Positions 1-33,784 of a stretch of DNA of 33,784 nucleotides are shown here, one piece after another (position 1 is the first letter of the stretch; each line of letters opens with the position of its first letter). The DNA lies in NCBI GenBank assembly GCA_018970245.1, contig JAGWWT010000013.1, forward strand, positions 1 to 33,784. Reading direction: 5' to 3'. This DNA comes from Patescibacteria group bacterium. GTDB lineage: Bacteria; Patescibacteriota; Minisyncoccia; Phycocordibacterales; PALSA-1337. The position numbers and the translations under genes were made by a program. Under the pieces are notes generated by a model that saw nothing but the letters and a program-made list of their open reading frames with translations, made no database searches and had not been told where the DNA came from.

Positions 1-129
1 CCGTTTCCCACGCGGCGCTCCGGTTGAGCCGGAGCATTTAACGCGAGACTAACATGACCGCCTACACACCCTTTACGCCCAATGATTCCGGATAACGCTC
101 GAAGCACTCGTATTACCGCTGCTGCTGGC

Positions 130-1070
130 CTTTCTTTTGGAAAGATATTTTCTCATGTCACCATGAGGATCGGACTATATCATCATCCCGATTTTGCATC
201 GGGAGTTCGGCGTCTGATAGTTTTCTAACTATCTCACTGTGTTGAGAGCTTTTCGCTCTCTCAAGATCAGTCTCTGAGGGGTCAAGTTATTTTCTGGCGG
301 TAATTTATACACAAAACATGGAAGGATATGCGGCCTTATCGATTCCAGGAATCGATGCCGGCCATTCTTGCCGATATACAATTTCGTATATCGTTTGCCT
401 CTGGAGCTGGGAGTTTGAATCGTGGAAACTATCCCAAAATTCTTGTCCAGAGCTTCCTGAAGCAATCTCGCTTCTTCAACAGTGAAATCATCGGCACTTA
501 TGGAGAATGAATAATGAGATTTCTCTCGAAAATCGAGAGTGCCATCATCCATGAACCATACTGCCAATGAGATCGGGGATTTCAGCAAGCCTTTTATATT
601 CACAGGAACAGTCTTCCTGCCATTAACATAAAATATCCTTCTGAAATCTTCCAGCGGCCTCAATGACCTCGTACTGAAATACCATTGAAGAGTGTCAGGC
701 CTTTGTTTGGGCGGGGTTTTCACTAGATCAGCCATATTCTCATATAGCCACATGACGTATTCTTTCTTCCTGTCCGCTTGTTTGATCTGCAGACGAGAAG
801 CCTTGAACTTGTCATATTCCAGCGAACCGTCACCAAGCAAAGTGCCGACGATGATATCTTTCTGTGTTTGCGATAAATCCATCGTGCCAATTATAACCGA
901 CTTCCCTGCTGATTGTCTGTGAAGGAACCCGATGAACATCGGATCGCAGCCCTAAACAGATTTCCAGCATATAAGCCGAATGTGCTCCGACACTTACGCG
1001 TCGGAGTCGCACCGCGGATCTACTACGAGTGCAAGTGTCTATCCACTTTAGAAGCTGCTATTTTTGTTTT
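130..1070 (-). other. Group I intron in 16S rRNA at E. coli position 516/517, with homing endonuclease gene
   Basis: This 941-nt insertion splits the conserved GTGCCAGC sequence after GT. It follows a U and ends in G, as group I introns do. The 3' half shows the two P7 signals: an R-type element TCAGAGACTGATC (about 261-280) and an S-type element GATATAGTCC (about 171-183), whose GACT and AGTC can pair. A LAGLIDADG gene fills most of the insertion and its 3' end overlaps the R element. I did not fold the full P1-P9 structure, so the subclass is not assigned. Position 516 is a known insertion site for rRNA introns in other microbes. Confidence 0.87.
229..882 (-). CDS. LAGLIDADG homing endonuclease (two-motif) in 16S intron at 516
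   Basis: The protein has about 217 residues when started at the ATG at 882. A longer start at 939 (236 aa) is possible but adds a sequence unlike the family. Two LAGLIDADG-type helices are visible: IIVGTLLGDGSL near the N-terminus and LAVWFMDDGTLD in the middle, each with the acidic metal-binding residue. This is the single-chain two-domain form, expected to act as a monomer that cuts an intronless 16S allele near position 516 and so spreads the intron. TTATAAT lies just upstream of this ATG, so the gene may have its own promoter inside the intron. The last codons overlap the intron P7 element, so coding and folding constrain each other. Confidence 0.9.
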   Translation of the reverse strand: MDLSQTQKDIIVGTLLGDGSLEYDKFKASRLQIKQADRKKEYVMWLYENMADLVKTPPKQRPDTLQWYFSTRSLRPLEDFRRIFYVNGRKTVPVNIKGLLKSPISLAVWFMDDGTLDFREKSHYSFSISADDFTVEEARLLQEALDKNFGIVSTIQTPSSRGKRYTKLYIGKNGRHRFLESIRPHILPCFVYKLPPENNLTPQRLILRERKALNTVR

Positions 1071-1196
1071 ACGAGTTTAGCAACTTCTTATTCTCCGGGT
1101 ACCGTCAATAACTTCGTCCCCGGCAAAAGGAGTTTACATACCGAAGCACTTCATCCTCCACGCGGCGTCGCTCCGTCAGACTTTCGTCCATTGCGG

Positions 1197-1227
<31 letters not shown>

Positions 1228-1236
1228 ATGGGCCGT

Positions 1237-1939
1237 CATAGCGTTTTCTCCGGTCACCCGGAGTATCAGACTATACCTTCATCCGATCTGAATTTGGATC
1301 GGAGCCAACATCTTAGCCGCCGTTTTAGCCACTAAAGTGACATTTCGGCGACTCCCTCGCTTATGCGAGAAGTCGTTACGGGGTCAAATATCTTTTGCTC
1401 TTTCCCTCCTGTCCCAGAATTCAAAGACCGGATCAGCCCGATCTTTTCGATGATATTCTTGTACATATCATCTGAAATCCTGTTGGTGCGCTCATTCTTG
1501 CCCAGAGATCTTATGATCTCAAGAGCCAGAACGGCTTGTTTCTTCTTTATCACGAGATGCGGAAGCATCGCTTCTAGGATACGCTTTACAGCTACCCTAT
1601 CGACGACCACTAATTCCGCCAAATCATGTGATACAGAAATCCGGACAATCCCTGCTTTCAAGTATTCACGGAGCTTTTCAAGCACATCTCTATGCTTCAA
1701 ATGCTGAGTGAAATTCAACTTGATTCGGGGACGATAGGTCCTGCGATACTTCGCGGTCTGCTTCTCCAGTGTTGCCACCAGAGAACCATCGCCATCGAAG
1801 AATCCAGCGACATATGCGTCGGAAAAATCAAAAACATCGACTTCCCACGGTATTCTCTTCATGCGTAAATTTTACCATGAAGAATCCACCGTTATGAGTT
1901 GGGTTTTACTTGAGGATCGCTCCTCAAGGAGATCGTTTG
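1237..1939 (-). other. Group I intron in 16S rRNA at about E. coli 328/329, with homing endonuclease gene
   Basis: This 703-nt insertion lies between GGGACTGAGAC and ACGGCCCATACACC, which are contiguous in other 16S genes. It ends in G. An S-type element GGTATAGTCTGAT (1263-1280) and an upstream element GTAACGACTTC (1365-1380) can form P7 through GACT/AGTC. The core resembles the 516 intron: TTTGACCCC precedes the R element here, and CTTGACCCC precedes it there. The 5' splice site follows a C rather than the usual U, so the exact boundary may differ by a base or two. Confidence 0.82.
1332..1862 (-). CDS. LAGLIDADG homing endonuclease (single-motif) in 16S intron at 328
   Basis: The protein has 176 residues. 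One LAGLIDADG helix, AYVAGFFDGDGSL, is visible at about residues 16-28. A second is not evident, so it should act as a homodimer on a near-palindromic 16S target. It is about 77 nt from the 5' splice site and ends about 95 nt from the 3' splice site, so its last codons must overlap the catalytic core. It differs in sequence from the endonuclease of the 516 intron, which points to an independent acquisition. Confidence 0.87.
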   Translation of the reverse strand: MKRIPWEVDVFDFSDAYVAGFFDGDGSLVATLEKQTAKYRRTYRPRIKLNFTQHLKHRDVLEKLREYLKAGIVRISVSHDLAELVVVDRVAVKRILEAMLPHLVIKKKQAVLALEIIRSLGKNERTNRISDDMYKNIIEKIGLIRSLNSGTGGKEQKIFDPVTTSRISEGVAEMSL

Positions 1940-2156
1940 GTCTCAGTCCCATCGGTGGGGGTCACCCTCTCAGGTCCCCTAGGCGTCATAGCCTTGGTAG
2001 GCCGTTACCCTACCAACTAGCTGATACCGATCAGGCCGCTCCCAGGGCGAAAAACCTTTACTCTTGCGAGACTATCGGGAATTACCCCGTCTTTCGACGA
2101 GCTATGCCCGACCCCAGGGTGCGTACCTAATTATTACTACCTCGTCTGCCGGTTGA

Positions 2157-2256
2157 TGCATCGCGCAACGCACGATGCAGGTTGCAAGTGACAGGTGAGA
2201 CAGGTTGAAACCTGCTACCTGAAACCTGCTACCTGCATCACACGCAGTGTGATGCA
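2157..2256 (-). repeat. Enlarged 16S V1 region: three consecutive hairpins, one built from short repeats
   Basis: Three back-to-back inverted repeats replace the short V1 helix. The first has arms TGCATCACAC/GTGTGATGCA (2234-2256). The second is about 60 nt (2176-2236) and is made of heptad-like units CAGGTAG, CAGGTTT, CAGGTAG, CAGGTTT, followed by inverted CAACCTG/CACCTG units that pair back. The third has arms TGCATCG/CGATGCA (2157-2179). All lie inside the mature 16S unless removed by processing. Confidence 0.85.
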
Positions 2257-2327
2257 CCCCCCTTGACTTGCATGCCTTATCCACGCCGCCAGCGTTCATC
2301 CTGAGCTAGGATCAAACTCTTAACTAT

Positions 2328-7941: not shown

Positions 7942-8090
7942 TCCCAGACATTTTTCCCTGAATCTCCTGTGAATTTAGGTTGTTTTTCACTCAAATTCAC
8001 TAGAAATCGACCGAAATCCGTGATTCTGCAGCATGTTGATAACTTTGTAATAAATACCCTGTTGTGATAGTCTTATAAGTACGGGAATTG

Positions 8091-8148
8091 CCCCCGGACC
8101 AAACTGTGGCGTTTATCGTCGCTTTCCCGAAAGGGATAGGTCCGGGGG
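8091..8148. ncRNA. Candidate three-way-junction RNA, unassigned
   Basis: A perfect 10-bp helix CCCCCGGACC (8091-8100) and GGTCCGGGGG (8139-8148) encloses two small hairpins: GGCG...CGTC and CCC-GAAA-GGG with a GNRA loop. A TATAAG box (8074-8079) precedes it on the plus strand, and no strong T-run follows on either strand. It sits in the 234-bp gap between the Pro-rich and DUF3800 genes, which are otherwise non-coding. Strand and function are unknown; it lacks hammerhead core sequences. Confidence 0.4.
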
Positions 8149-8160
8149 TTTCCTATTGCC

Positions 8161-8787
8161 CTATCTAGGCCACACTTGGACGTAGATCTCCCTCGCTCCT
8201 ATGATATCCCGGAAGGCCTTGGCATCTTTCTTTTTCTTATTCAGACTGCGATTGACTGCCCCGGCGACCATATCTGCCAGTTGCAAGAGGTTGTTTGACT
8301 TGGAATCCTGCATCTTCACTTTCTTTATGCAAACTTTGTCTTTGGTATTGATCTTCTTTTTCAGATACGTCGCAAGCTGGTATTTGAACAGCTTCCGGCC
8401 GGATTCATCTATGACCACGATGGGCTTCGAGAGCTTCTCTTTGGCATTCTCGAACAGCAGGTTGCTGGCGTACTTATAGAAAGATTCTTTGTATTTGAAG
8501 CCTTCGCTATAGAGGGCGGCCTTGTTGATGACTATGCCGTAATAGAAGAAATTGTATGGTAAGACCGCGCGGAAGAAAGCTTCCCTGACTCGATCAGAAT
8601 TCTCCTTGAAATGAAATTCGAATCCTTCCGGCAGATCGAGCTCCGTGCGCAGAAGGCCGATCCTTTTGTCGCACGCCAAAGCATCGTCGTTCTCCTCGAA
8701 CGCGATAAGGGCGATGGTGAAGAACTTGCTCGCTCCGTCGGCGAGCTTGAGCCCGGGATCCCCCGATTCATCGATGAATACCAGCAT
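8161..8787 (-). CDS. DUF3800 domain protein
   Basis: The 208-residue protein starts MLVFIDESGDPG, the N-terminal signature of DUF3800 (acidic residues D6, E7, D10). It carries the C-terminal LQLADMVAGA motif (about residues 168-177) found in the same family. DUF3800 proteins are predicted to have an RNase H-like fold and are frequent in defence regions; the biochemical role is not settled. It is the outermost member of the defence island. TATAAT ends 7 nt before the ATG. Confidence 0.88.
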   Translation of the reverse strand: MLVFIDESGDPGLKLADGASKFFTIALIAFEENDDALACDKRIGLLRTELDLPEGFEFHFKENSDRVREAFFRAVLPYNFFYYGIVINKAALYSEGFKYKESFYKYASNLLFENAKEKLSKPIVVIDESGRKLFKYQLATYLKKKINTKDKVCIKKVKMQDSKSNNLLQLADMVAGAVNRSLNKKKKDAKAFRDIIGAREIYVQVWPR

Positions 8788-19837: not shown

Positions 19838-19964
19838 TCCCCATAAACAGAGAAGCGCAGCCGGACCGAAGTCTAGCTGCGCTTACGATATCACTCAAAG
19901 AGCGATCGTAAATCTCCATTGCCTTTCGGCGAGCATACATTAAGCCGCATGCGGGGGCTGTGAA

Positions 19965-20390
19965 TTAAGCGGCTTGCTGCTTCAAATCGATACGGATGCG
20001 CTTCAGATAATCAGCGGGTCTGACCGCCAACATATCAACAATCCCTTTACGGAGATTGTTGATATCGCCGTAGCTGAATTCGCTGCCAGGGACGACGAAC
20101 AGGCTGTTGTCATCTTGCGTCGTCCAAAACATCGGGACCCCGCTGCCATACGTGCCGGGTTCATCAAGCATCCCCGTATATAGCAGACCGAGATTGATGT
20201 TTTGACCTGATACATCTTTGTATATCTTAGCCAATGCGAGGAACTCATTTTGCCATTGCAGGCAGACCTCGTGGAACCTCCGAATCTCATCCGCCCAGTC
20301 TTGGGCCTGACCAGACTCGTTTTCTGTGCTCGTTCCGCTGTAGGCCCACACCGCGATCTTGGTCGCCAGTCTTCCAATCATTCTTTTCAT
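19965..20390 (-). CDS. Hypothetical protein downstream of the structured RNA leader
   Basis: The 141-residue soluble protein is not recognised. It has an amphipathic helical N-terminal half (DWADEIRRFHEVCLQWQNEFLALAKIYKD) and a Gly/Ser-rich middle. The ATG follows the last helix of the structured RNA by about 13 nt, and no ribosome binding site is visible. It is the only gene served by the strong promoter at 20604-20632. Confidence 0.6.
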   Translation of the reverse strand: MKRMIGRLATKIAVWAYSGTSTENESGQAQDWADEIRRFHEVCLQWQNEFLALAKIYKDVSGQNINLGLLYTGMLDEPGTYGSGVPMFWTTQDDNSLFVVPGSEFSYGDINNLRKGIVDMLAVRPADYLKRIRIDLKQQAA

Positions 20391-20403
20391 AGGTCAATGG
20401 AGC

Positions 20404-20597
20404 GCGCTGTTGTCCGCCTTTTGGGCGATCCGGTAGTCGCGTACCGTTACCTTGCGGGGACGTACCCCTTTACCAGTCCAGGTAACTGACTGCACCACCT
20501 CACACGAGATAGCTTGCCGCATACCTCTATGGATCGTTAAAGAGGAGACATGCGAAAAGCTATCCCGTGACAGCGCTATATTTCAACGTCCTTCACT
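20404..20597 (-). ncRNA. Highly structured RNA (candidate leader/riboswitch or independent ncRNA)
   Basis: On the minus strand a closing helix GCGCTGT (20570-20576) and ACAGCGC (20404-20410) encloses four hairpins. A: GATAGCTT/AAGCTATC (20508-20564) with inner CGCAT/ATGCG and CCTCT/AGAGG. B: GTTACCT/AGGTAAC (20446-20486) with inner GGGG/CCCC. C: CGGTA/TACCG (20431-20446, sharing one base with B). D: CGCC/GGCG (20415-20427). A consensus promoter starts it. No RNase P, tmRNA or SRP signature is present. The closing helix sits just before the start codon of the next gene. Confidence 0.65.
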
Positions 20598-20603
20598 GCG
20601 TAC

Positions 20604-20632
20604 AGTATACACCTAAATCCCCTTTTTGTCAA
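20604..20632 (-). promoter_or_regulatory. Strong promoter of the structured RNA
   Basis: TTGACA (20627-20632), exactly 17 nt, TATACT (20604-20609). Start predicted near 20597. Confidence 0.78.
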
Positions 20633-20667
20633 TAGGCACATTCCGACGATCGGGTGGCCGCTTCGTA

Positions 20668-20697
20668 GGCTTCCCATTCATGGGCAGCCGCTTTTTT
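20668..20697 (+). terminator. Dispersed hairpin terminator, copy 5
   Basis: GGCTTCCCATTC, then ATGGGCAGCC and GC plus six T. There is no plus-strand gene upstream; it lies between two divergent promoters. Confidence 0.72.
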
Positions 20698-20752
20698 GTT
20701 TGACAAAGTCTGTTTTAGATGATTTTATATCCGTCAGAAAGGACGATGACCT

Positions 20753-21328
20753 ATGTCAATAACATTCACGCCCCTGGACGAAGAAAACCGGGATTCTATC
20801 CATAAGATGTCTTTGGGGATCTATCTAGACGGGTGCTGCTATGAATTCGCGGCGGCCCTGAATCGAGATCTCGGCTGGCCCCTTTACGGGCTCATGACTG
20901 TGAATCCGCTAGGTCTCATAATCAGGCACGCTGTGGCAAAGGATCCTCGACACAGATATTGGGACATCCGAGGACCGGTCAAGAGACGATCCTTAGGGTC
21001 GCCATTCGACTTGAATGATCCTCTGATCCAGCCGATCAGCCTAGAGGATATGCGCAAGATCCGGCCAGTCGACGACGGTGATATCGATCGCGCTTCCCTG
21101 ACGGCACAGGCACTATGGCCGGAGCTGCCATGGCTCGCTCACACTCTTCATGCGCGCTCGCAGGAATTTCTCGTGCGTCTGACAGATCTATGCCGCAAAC
21201 ATGGCGTCTGGATCAGGGCGCCCTATCCAGCAGCACAAGTAGTGCTTTCAAACGCGTATGGTGATGAGAAAGGATTCAAATTGAGCCCGACTCTCGACGG
21301 ACAGTACTTCTTCGACAGGATGCTGTAG
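20753..21328 (+). CDS. Orphan protein with a papain-like Cys-His-Asp pattern
   Basis: The 191-residue protein has DGCCYEFAAALNRDLGWPLYG (about 25-45), then a His in IIRHAVAKD and an Asp in YWDIRG, spaced like the Cys-His-Asp triad of papain/transglutaminase folds. The second half contains helical segments and no membrane region. The assignment rests on the spacing pattern alone. AAAGGA about 9 nt upstream of ATG 20753 is the ribosome binding site. TTGACA at 20701-20706 with an AT-rich TTTATA box 18 nt later is a plausible promoter. Terminator copy 6 follows. Confidence 0.7.
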   Translation: MSITFTPLDEENRDSIHKMSLGIYLDGCCYEFAAALNRDLGWPLYGLMTVNPLGLIIRHAVAKDPRHRYWDIRGPVKRRSLGSPFDLNDPLIQPISLEDMRKIRPVDDGDIDRASLTAQALWPELPWLAHTLHARSQEFLVRLTDLCRKHGVWIRAPYPAAQVVLSNAYGDEKGFKLSPTLDGQYFFDRML

Positions 21329-21349
21329 AGTGACAGCTCTTTTCATCAT

Positions 21350-21383
21350 GCGGCTTCCCATTCATGGGCGGCCACTTTTTTTA
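21350..21383 (+). terminator. Dispersed hairpin terminator, copy 6
   Basis: GCGGCTTCCCATTC, then ATGGGCGGCCAC and seven T. It ends the papain-like orphan gene. Confidence 0.8.
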
Positions 21384-21385
21384 TA

Positions 21386-32879: not shown

Positions 32880-33244
32880 CGCAGGATTCAACTGCGTAGA
32901 TCATACCTCAAATCGTCATCGCAATGCCGGCATCACAAGCCGACGCACAAAGTTCCTAATAGGATCGGCGGATTAGTACTTCACGGCTCAACGCCTTGCG
33001 GCGCGTACACCTAAAGCCTATCAACGTGATCATCTCTCACGGGCCTCACCGATACCTGATCTTGGGGCCGGCTTCGCGCTTATATGCTTTCAGCGCTTAT
33101 CCGATCCGAACATAGCTGCCCGGCGGTGCCGTTGGCACGACAGCCGGTAGACCAGAGGTTCGTTCAACTCGGTCCTCTCGTACTAGAGTCAATTCCCCTC
33201 AAGTATCAACGCCTGCAGCAGATAGGAGACCAACCTGTCTCACG

Positions 33245-33641
33245 CTTCTTTTCGCACCTTGCAGTGCGGAATGGACTATATGATCATCTTTTATCGTCGC
33301 GTGGCTTCACGCAAAGAGGAAGATGGTTGACGTGTAGTCTCTACGGGCGACACAAGTCCGTAAAGTCTTTCAACTTTATGACTCTGTCTTCCCTAGGTGT
33401 TACCTCGCTCCCCTCCCGGAGATACGGGCTTCACCGATATCAGTCAACTGTGTCATCGAAAATCGCTTTTCGAGACCGCCGTGGACAAGTCTTATACATT
33501 GAATGGTGGGATCCATTCATCCAACCTCGGGATTCAGACGGTAAATCAGTCCAAAGTCGAAAGTCTATAAAGTCTTGTAAAGTCATGGCAAATCGCTCTG
33601 ACTTTATGGACTTTATGGCTTTATGGACTTTCAACTAACTT
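33245..33641 (-). other. ORF-less group I intron in 23S rRNA at E. coli 2593 site
   Basis: A 397-nt insertion after GACCGT and before CGTGAGACAG. It follows U and ends in G. R-type element CGTAGAGACTACACG (33331-33345) and S-type ATATAGTCC (33271-33285) pair through GACTA/TAGTC. It contains no reading frame of size. The site is the one cut by I-CreI in the chloroplast Cr.LSU case. Confidence 0.88.
33548..33632 (-). repeat. Short AAAGTC-type repeats forming a snap-back hairpin in the 23S intron
   Basis: AAAGTCCAT, AAAGCCAT, AAAGTCCAT, AAAGTC on the minus strand (33600-33632) face GACTTTACAA, GACTTTATA, GACTTTC, GACTTTGG (33548-33587), pairing end to end. A related pair lies at 33359-33380. 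Confidence 0.75.
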
Positions 33642-33673
<32 letters not shown>

Positions 33674-33784
33674 TTGGCGAACAGCCAAACCTTTGGGAGC
33701 TTCTCCACCCCCAGGATGTGGTGAGCCGACATCGAGGTGCCGAACTCCGCCGTCGATATGAACTCTTAGGCGGAACTAGCCTGT

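Follow-up and report, generated by a model that had tools for sequence, protein, structure and literature searches.

The window, by which we mean the whole stretch of 33,784 nucleotides that was analyzed, comes from a Patescibacteria genome (G000:C26) of 1.42 Mb in 101 contigs. On its minus strand, a transcript of ~750 nt is predicted to run from ~20597 to ~19845, with transcription expected to start near 20597. This window copy, hereafter W, comprises a 5' structured domain, an ORF and a 3' structured domain, the elements of which are listed in Table 1.

Elsewhere in the window, a DUF3800-IX RNA (Rfam RF02968, 53 bits; 8090-8153, plus strand) adjoins a DUF3800 gene on the opposite strand (8161-8787, minus strand). 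The 16S rRNA (window 1-2319 and 32952-33784, minus strand) can be matched only piecewise, the pieces being separated by long inserts, one of which holds two ORFs (229-939 and 1332-1862) that read by eye like LAGLIDADG homing endonucleases; judged in the same way, both window ends appear to hold intron-bearing rRNA. Near-identical repeats on the plus strand, GGCTTCCCATTCATGGGC(A/G)GCC(G/A)CTTTTTT at 20665-20705 and 21345-21385, flank an orphan ORF (20753-21328) that opens MSITFTPLDEENRDSIHKMS, and are perhaps repeated terminators round another exchangeable gene.

Table 1. Elements of the window copy in transcript order, followed by defense-type neighbors of two other copies
Feature	Position	Strand	Description
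Promoter	20604..20632	-	TTGACA-17-TATACT; 11/12 consensus positions (consensus scan)
5' structured domain	20404..20597	-	leader + P1 + P2 + P3/P4
Leader motif	20586	-	TTGAAA, within the 5' domain
P1, closing helix	20576-20570 / 20410-20404	-	7 bp, GCGCTGT/ACAGCGC
P2, long hairpin	20567-20505	-	~63 nt
P3	20499-20494 / 20437-20432	-	P4 inside P3
P5, 5' strand	20395..20402	-	CTCCATTG; ends 4 nt 5' of start codon
Cargo ORF	19965..20390	-	141 aa; in P5 loop; no known family
P6 hairpin, then P5 3' strand	19914..19930	-	GCC-GAAA-GGC, then CAATGGAG (19921-19914)
P7 hairpin	19884..19910	-	asymmetric 1x3 internal loop, ACGA-T-CGCTC...GAGTG-ATA-TCGT
P8 hairpin	19882-19855	-	GCGCAGC...GCTGCGC; probability 1.00
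P8 + TTCTC + P0 3' strand segment	19845..19882	-	
P0, 3' strand	19849-19845	-	TGTTT; partner 20583-20579
Phd/YefM antitoxin near copy G190	L060 404-923	-	
MNT nucleotidyltransferase with HepT near copy G773	L106 123-952	-	

The promoter and the 7-bp closing helix recorded in the initial annotation of this DNA are both in place. Within that helix the fold is multi-helical, as proposed, but it has three branches, one of them compound, rather than four hairpins, and the hairpin given as 57 nt is the longer P2. Nor does the base of the closing helix abut the start codon at 20390: 13 nt separate it from the AUG, and this gap contains the 5' strand of a long-range helix, P5. The segment 20597-20391 has a minimum free energy of -80.6 kcal/mol, whereas its shuffles average -64.6 (z = -3.9; equaled by 0 of 200 shuffles), and the opposite strand of the 5' segment folds more weakly (z = -2.9). 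In the full transcript, P1, P2 and P3 have pairing probabilities of 0.98, 1.00 and 0.94. The element that had been described is real, but constitutes just the 5' half of the RNA, the 3' half (~19930-19845) coming after the stop codon of the gene.

The two halves are joined by P5, in which CTCCATTG, before the start codon, pairs with CAATGGAG, after the stop codon, with a probability of 0.99 in the full transcript; the 5' strand is the exact reverse complement of 19921-19914. The ORF enclosed in the P5 loop has a chance of staying open of 7.6e-4 and a codon-usage z of 5.7, and its start region displays no visible Shine-Dalgarno sequence. The covariance models of Rfam 15 gave no match to either half or to the relatives described below at the gathering threshold or at a meaningful E-value, scans of both halves at E up to 10 yielding chance hits only, in line with the earlier remark that no known class signature could be seen, and ARAGORN finds no tmRNA in the window.

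Five further copies beyond W were found in Taylorbacteria and related families. Copy M (genome G005), from the genus of W, was the one strong match in a DNA search of the family (E = 1.6e-18, 74% over the 5' domain); copy T, from another family of the same order, was found by an order-wide search, and both genomes are named Candidatus Taylorbacteria. Copies G190 and G114 were found by a covariance model of the 3' domain, and copy G773, from another family of the class, by a refined covariance model. The homology between W and M breaks off at the start codon and returns past the stop codon (W CGCCGAAAGGCAATGGAGATTTACGA, M CGCCGAAAGGCAATTGAGAATTTTACGA), and in each of the two the segment before the start (CTCCATTG in W, CTCAATTG in M) is the exact reverse complement of the 3' sequence of the same copy. 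Every copy is laid out as promoter, leader, 5' domain, CTCMATT, AUG, ORF, stop codon, AAAGGCAATKGAG, P7 and P8. A near-consensus promoter lies at the equivalent place in all six (read from the sequence in the five other than W), the leader ends in TTGAA or TTGAC (CTGAA in M), the AUG follows P5 by 1-4 nt in 6/6, and P8 is followed by TTCTC, TCTC or TC. AAAGGCAATKGAG, covering the P6/P5 3' region, is likewise conserved in 6/6 copies, 13-48 nt past the stop codon in the five in which the distance was measured. The arms are mostly the same across the six copies, G114 having no clear P2. A reading of the conserved AATGGAGA as the opening of a second, short peptide was discarded, because W and M differ by a 2-nt indel that breaks the frame and M has no ATG.

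Unconstrained folds of the ORF-excised RNAs return the same arms in most copies. When the complete transcripts (482-842 nt) were folded with the ORF in place, P5 reached probabilities of 0.99 in W, 0.96 in M, 0.96 in T, 1.00 in G190, 0.99 in G114 and 0.20 in G773, and P0, the helix closing the whole RNA, reached 0.42, 0.16, 0.82, 1.00, 0.32 and 0.95 in the same order of copies. Complementarity of at least 8 nt between the start and stop flanks (14 nt before the start against 80 nt after the stop) was present in 5/5 long-ORF copies, M and T being entered via L042 and L040, but in only ~8 of the 345 ORFs that served as controls, taken from the retrieved loci.

Covariation provides a second line of evidence. 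In P7, 8 of 11 pairs carry double changes, a result obtained in 0 of 500 shuffles, and controls with slid strands collapse. P1, P2, P7 and P8 co-vary with near-complete replacement of their sequences between copies, and each strand of these helices and of P0 pairs far better with its own partner than with the partners from other copies. The noncanonical pairs on the transcript strand comprise 16 G-U and 0 A-C, beside 15 other mismatches, and selection therefore appears to act on the RNA strand. The strands for the own-partner and G-U counts were picked by eye, above all those of P0, such that these figures illustrate rather than test the pairing; the unconstrained folds and the P7 covariation are the stronger evidence. 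For P5, there is one compensatory pair, distinguishing W from M (CTCAATTG/CAATTGAG in M), and only one because this helix hardly varies. The initial annotation had named an absence of covariation in homologues, or a confident match to a known RNA class, as what would refute it. Neither was observed: the RNA is unassigned, conserved, promoter-led and structured, with covariation, and the 5' domain of W has homologous, co-varying counterparts in the relatives.

The cargo ORFs encode 141 (W), 137, 185, 173, 210 and 62 (G773) aa. No meaningful similarity was detected by BLASTP among the first five, and the sixth, that of G773, was compared with the others by eye only. Searches against Pfam, PHROGs, NCBIfam and PADLOC (NCBIfam and PADLOC only for G773) gave no convincing match, with no PADLOC family above noise, and the W protein has no relative in these databases or in the PDB. 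From their sequences, the ORFs look coding: each of the five long ones would stay open by chance with a probability of 1e-3 to 1e-4 (0.07 for G773), and codon usage lies 2.5 to 6.3 SD over shuffles. The GRAVY index is negative in 6/6 proteins, which are soluble-looking rather than small hydrophobic toxins. AlphaFold models computed without an alignment reached a pLDDT of 51 for the W protein and 46 for the M protein.

The genomic surroundings differ between copies. M lies between a YdjM-type gene and ftsZ, a place unlike that of W, and is adjoined by intact genes. A near-empty counterpart of this site is present in the genome of W itself, where the distance from the YdjM-type gene to the conserved flank upstream of ftsZ is ~36 nt, as against 817 nt in M; in a further genome (G028), a methyltransferase-like gene, named by eye, occupies the same spot. 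The ~780 nt inserted in M extend from near the -35 box, just past the stop codon of ydjM, to the vicinity of the P0 3' strand, with no target duplication visible. The unit thus appears to have been inserted as promoter plus RNA, at a variable spot. The distribution is patchy, with copies in 4 of 397 genomes of the order (W, T, G190, G114), 2 of 34 genomes of the genus (W, M) and one more in a sample of the class (G773). Defense-type genes occur near 3/6 copies, W adjoining a type I restriction system and G190 and G773 the genes given in Table 1, and T, M and G114 have housekeeping genes beside them. No integrase gene or cassette array was seen in the immediate flanks read for each copy. DNA and protein searches of phage and plasmid records gave no match, and IMG/VR, scanned for five DNA patterns and with two proteins as queries, yielded no relatives, the leads L103, L104 and L112 being chance matches, inside coding sequence or in an unlike context.

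In three loci (L047, L048 and L069), the 3' core is preceded by a promoter-like site and followed by a strong hairpin. These loci are possible ORF-less relatives, with promoter and terminator, and could be small RNA genes of this type or simply share a common module; the model R3 was built with L047 and L048, and its scores for those two are accordingly not independent. L047 is nearly identical to L062, which belongs to a MAG of another family: a stretch of 2,090 nt with one mismatch, which includes the small RNA gene akin to the 3' domain (1455-1580 in both), is common to the two MAGs, reflecting either recent transfer or binning contamination. Other candidates were discarded. The genome-wide palindrome pattern gave six matches, namely M, T and four by chance (L039, L041, L043, L044); the BLAST leads L028, L029, L031, L033 and L034 were unrelated and lacked the second half; the R1 matches in G213 and G234 were unrelated hairpins; and the R2 matches L063-L086, except L069, were mostly coding or unconvincing. 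Among the latter, L084 (G142, ~950-1630) consists of an ORF bounded by inverted palindromic copies of the 14-nt CTACATTAACGTGACGCTATAGCGTAGAGTTAATGT, another kind of repeat, and looks like a separate small mobile element.

The anatomy of the RNA in its six copies is well supported, the sequences themselves displaying the promoter, the helices, the position of the ORF and its exchange, and for one copy the insertion as a unit; the function we infer. The reading that we favor, while placing it slightly short of an even chance, is that of a self-contained unit of ~750 nt in which a closed multi-arm RNA frame holds an exchangeable ORF in the P5 loop, with translation gated by the 3' region. P0 would close the ends of the RNA, from which the arms P1-P4, P5, P7 and P8 would extend, the ORF occupying the apical loop of P5. 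The full-length RNA would fold back such that the 3' region holds the segment just 5' of the AUG in P5, and the cargo would be translated little or not at all before removal of the 3' domain or the opening of P5, whether by a factor, by processing or by a ribosome. P5 would thus mask a start region without a visible Shine-Dalgarno sequence, making translation depend on the state of the 3' domain. The frame may further serve as a portable expression and stability cassette moving between genomes, with new cargo genes acquired at the P5 loop and the RNA frame kept. Against this reading, the predicted P5 is improbable in G773, which has the shortest ORF, P0 is weak in the predicted folds of W, M and G114, and P2 is unclear in G114.

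A stable P5 could just as well benefit the RNA itself as regulate translation, and the possible ORF-less relatives, with promoter and terminator, hint at a 3' core that functions in the absence of cargo. It is conceivable, albeit rather unlikely, that the folded RNA is itself the product, a large noncoding RNA and possibly an RNP scaffold or ribozyme, with the ORF as a passenger or an accessory protein that a peripheral loop shelters, much as group I and II introns do. The closed complex fold, the conserved internal-loop hairpin P7, the conserved unpaired stretches and the possible ORF-less relatives are all compatible with this, but the ORF of every copy is unrelated to the others, unlike intron-encoded proteins, no gene is interrupted, and no Rfam ribozyme or intron matches at E up to 10. 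The defense-type genes near half of the copies (type I restriction, Phd/YefM and MNT/HepT), the hok-like fold-back silencing and the patchy, mobile distribution would suit a toxin-antitoxin-like or anti-phage unit with varied effectors silenced by the RNA fold until infection or stress. We consider this improbable given that PADLOC matches are not beyond noise, the proteins look soluble, three copies sit beside housekeeping genes and defense neighbors are common in these genomes.

The conservation of foldable flanks on either side of unrelated ORFs, and insertion as a unit, also recall an integron-like cassette acting at the DNA level, in which the flanks would be folded single-stranded recombination sites; the G-U but never A-C pairs on the transcript strand, which point to selection on RNA, the promoter of each copy and the solitary occurrence of the copies leave this explanation little probability. 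The riboswitch or autoregulatory leader suggested in the initial annotation agrees with a structured domain between promoter and start codon and is nevertheless very improbable: the six copies have different, unrelated ORFs downstream, so that the RNA is not the leader of any one gene, and it continues past the stop codon into a conserved 3' half that pairs back. The free noncoding RNA offered there as the other option accords poorly with an anatomy that runs on through the gene to the 3' domain, although ORF-less relatives of that domain (L047, L048, L069) may exist. Finally, short single-helix matches to other genomes do arise by chance, but that the whole is an ordinary mRNA with stable hairpins is scarcely credible in view of the E-value of the match to M, the conservation of both halves round unrelated ORFs and covariation that survives shuffle and slide controls.

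A structured RNA usually either acts as leader to one set gene family or is a gene that contains no ORF. In the present case, the RNA frame appears to be inherited and the protein gene inside it swapped, with the position of the start codon fixed by pairing with sequence beyond the stop codon. That the gated frame set out above represents an undescribed class of mobile unit, a conserved RNA fold acting as the vehicle for exchangeable protein genes whose translation start is controlled by the 3' end, is a tentative proposal, plausible rather than probable. We found no described class with this arrangement in the open-access literature, and an earlier description elsewhere is possible. If confirmed, such units would be a novel means of packaging and regulating genes, and perhaps of moving them, found in a radiation of bacteria where gene regulation is almost unexplored.

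Among known systems, hok-type mRNAs of type I toxin-antitoxin modules also fold back, their 3' region pairing with their own translation-initiation region; they encode a small hydrophobic toxin, and the antitoxin is an antisense RNA. The present RNA resembles them in the pairing of its 3' region with the initiation region (P5 0.96-1.00 in 5/6 copies), its own promoter and its compact folded transcript, but its cargo of 62-210 aa is nonhydrophobic and unrelated between copies, it has a large extra 5' domain, and no antisense consensus promoter was seen on the opposite strand within 20390-20600. Integron gene cassettes similarly combine unrelated orphan ORFs with conserved foldable flanks and insert as units, whereas here it is the structure of the RNA strand that is conserved, with its own promoter and in solitary copies. 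Group I introns carry ORFs in a peripheral loop. Group II introns likewise hold an ORF in a peripheral loop of a structured RNA (PMC8637638). The looping out of a whole ORF from a structured RNA is thus shared with both, but the unit has its own promoter, interrupts no host gene and does not encode a conserved intron protein, and no Intron_gpI or gpII core was matched in Rfam at E up to 10. The possibility of a circularly permuted intron was dismissed for want of a core match and because such RNAs of the group II type reportedly contain no ORF (PMC8637638). OLE, GOLLD and ROOL are large ornate noncoding RNAs (PMC12286853), and the RNA described here shares with them the character of a large, closed, multi-arm bacterial RNA of unknown role and patchy distribution; it differs from them in having no sequence or structure match in Rfam and in that an ORF is part of its layout.
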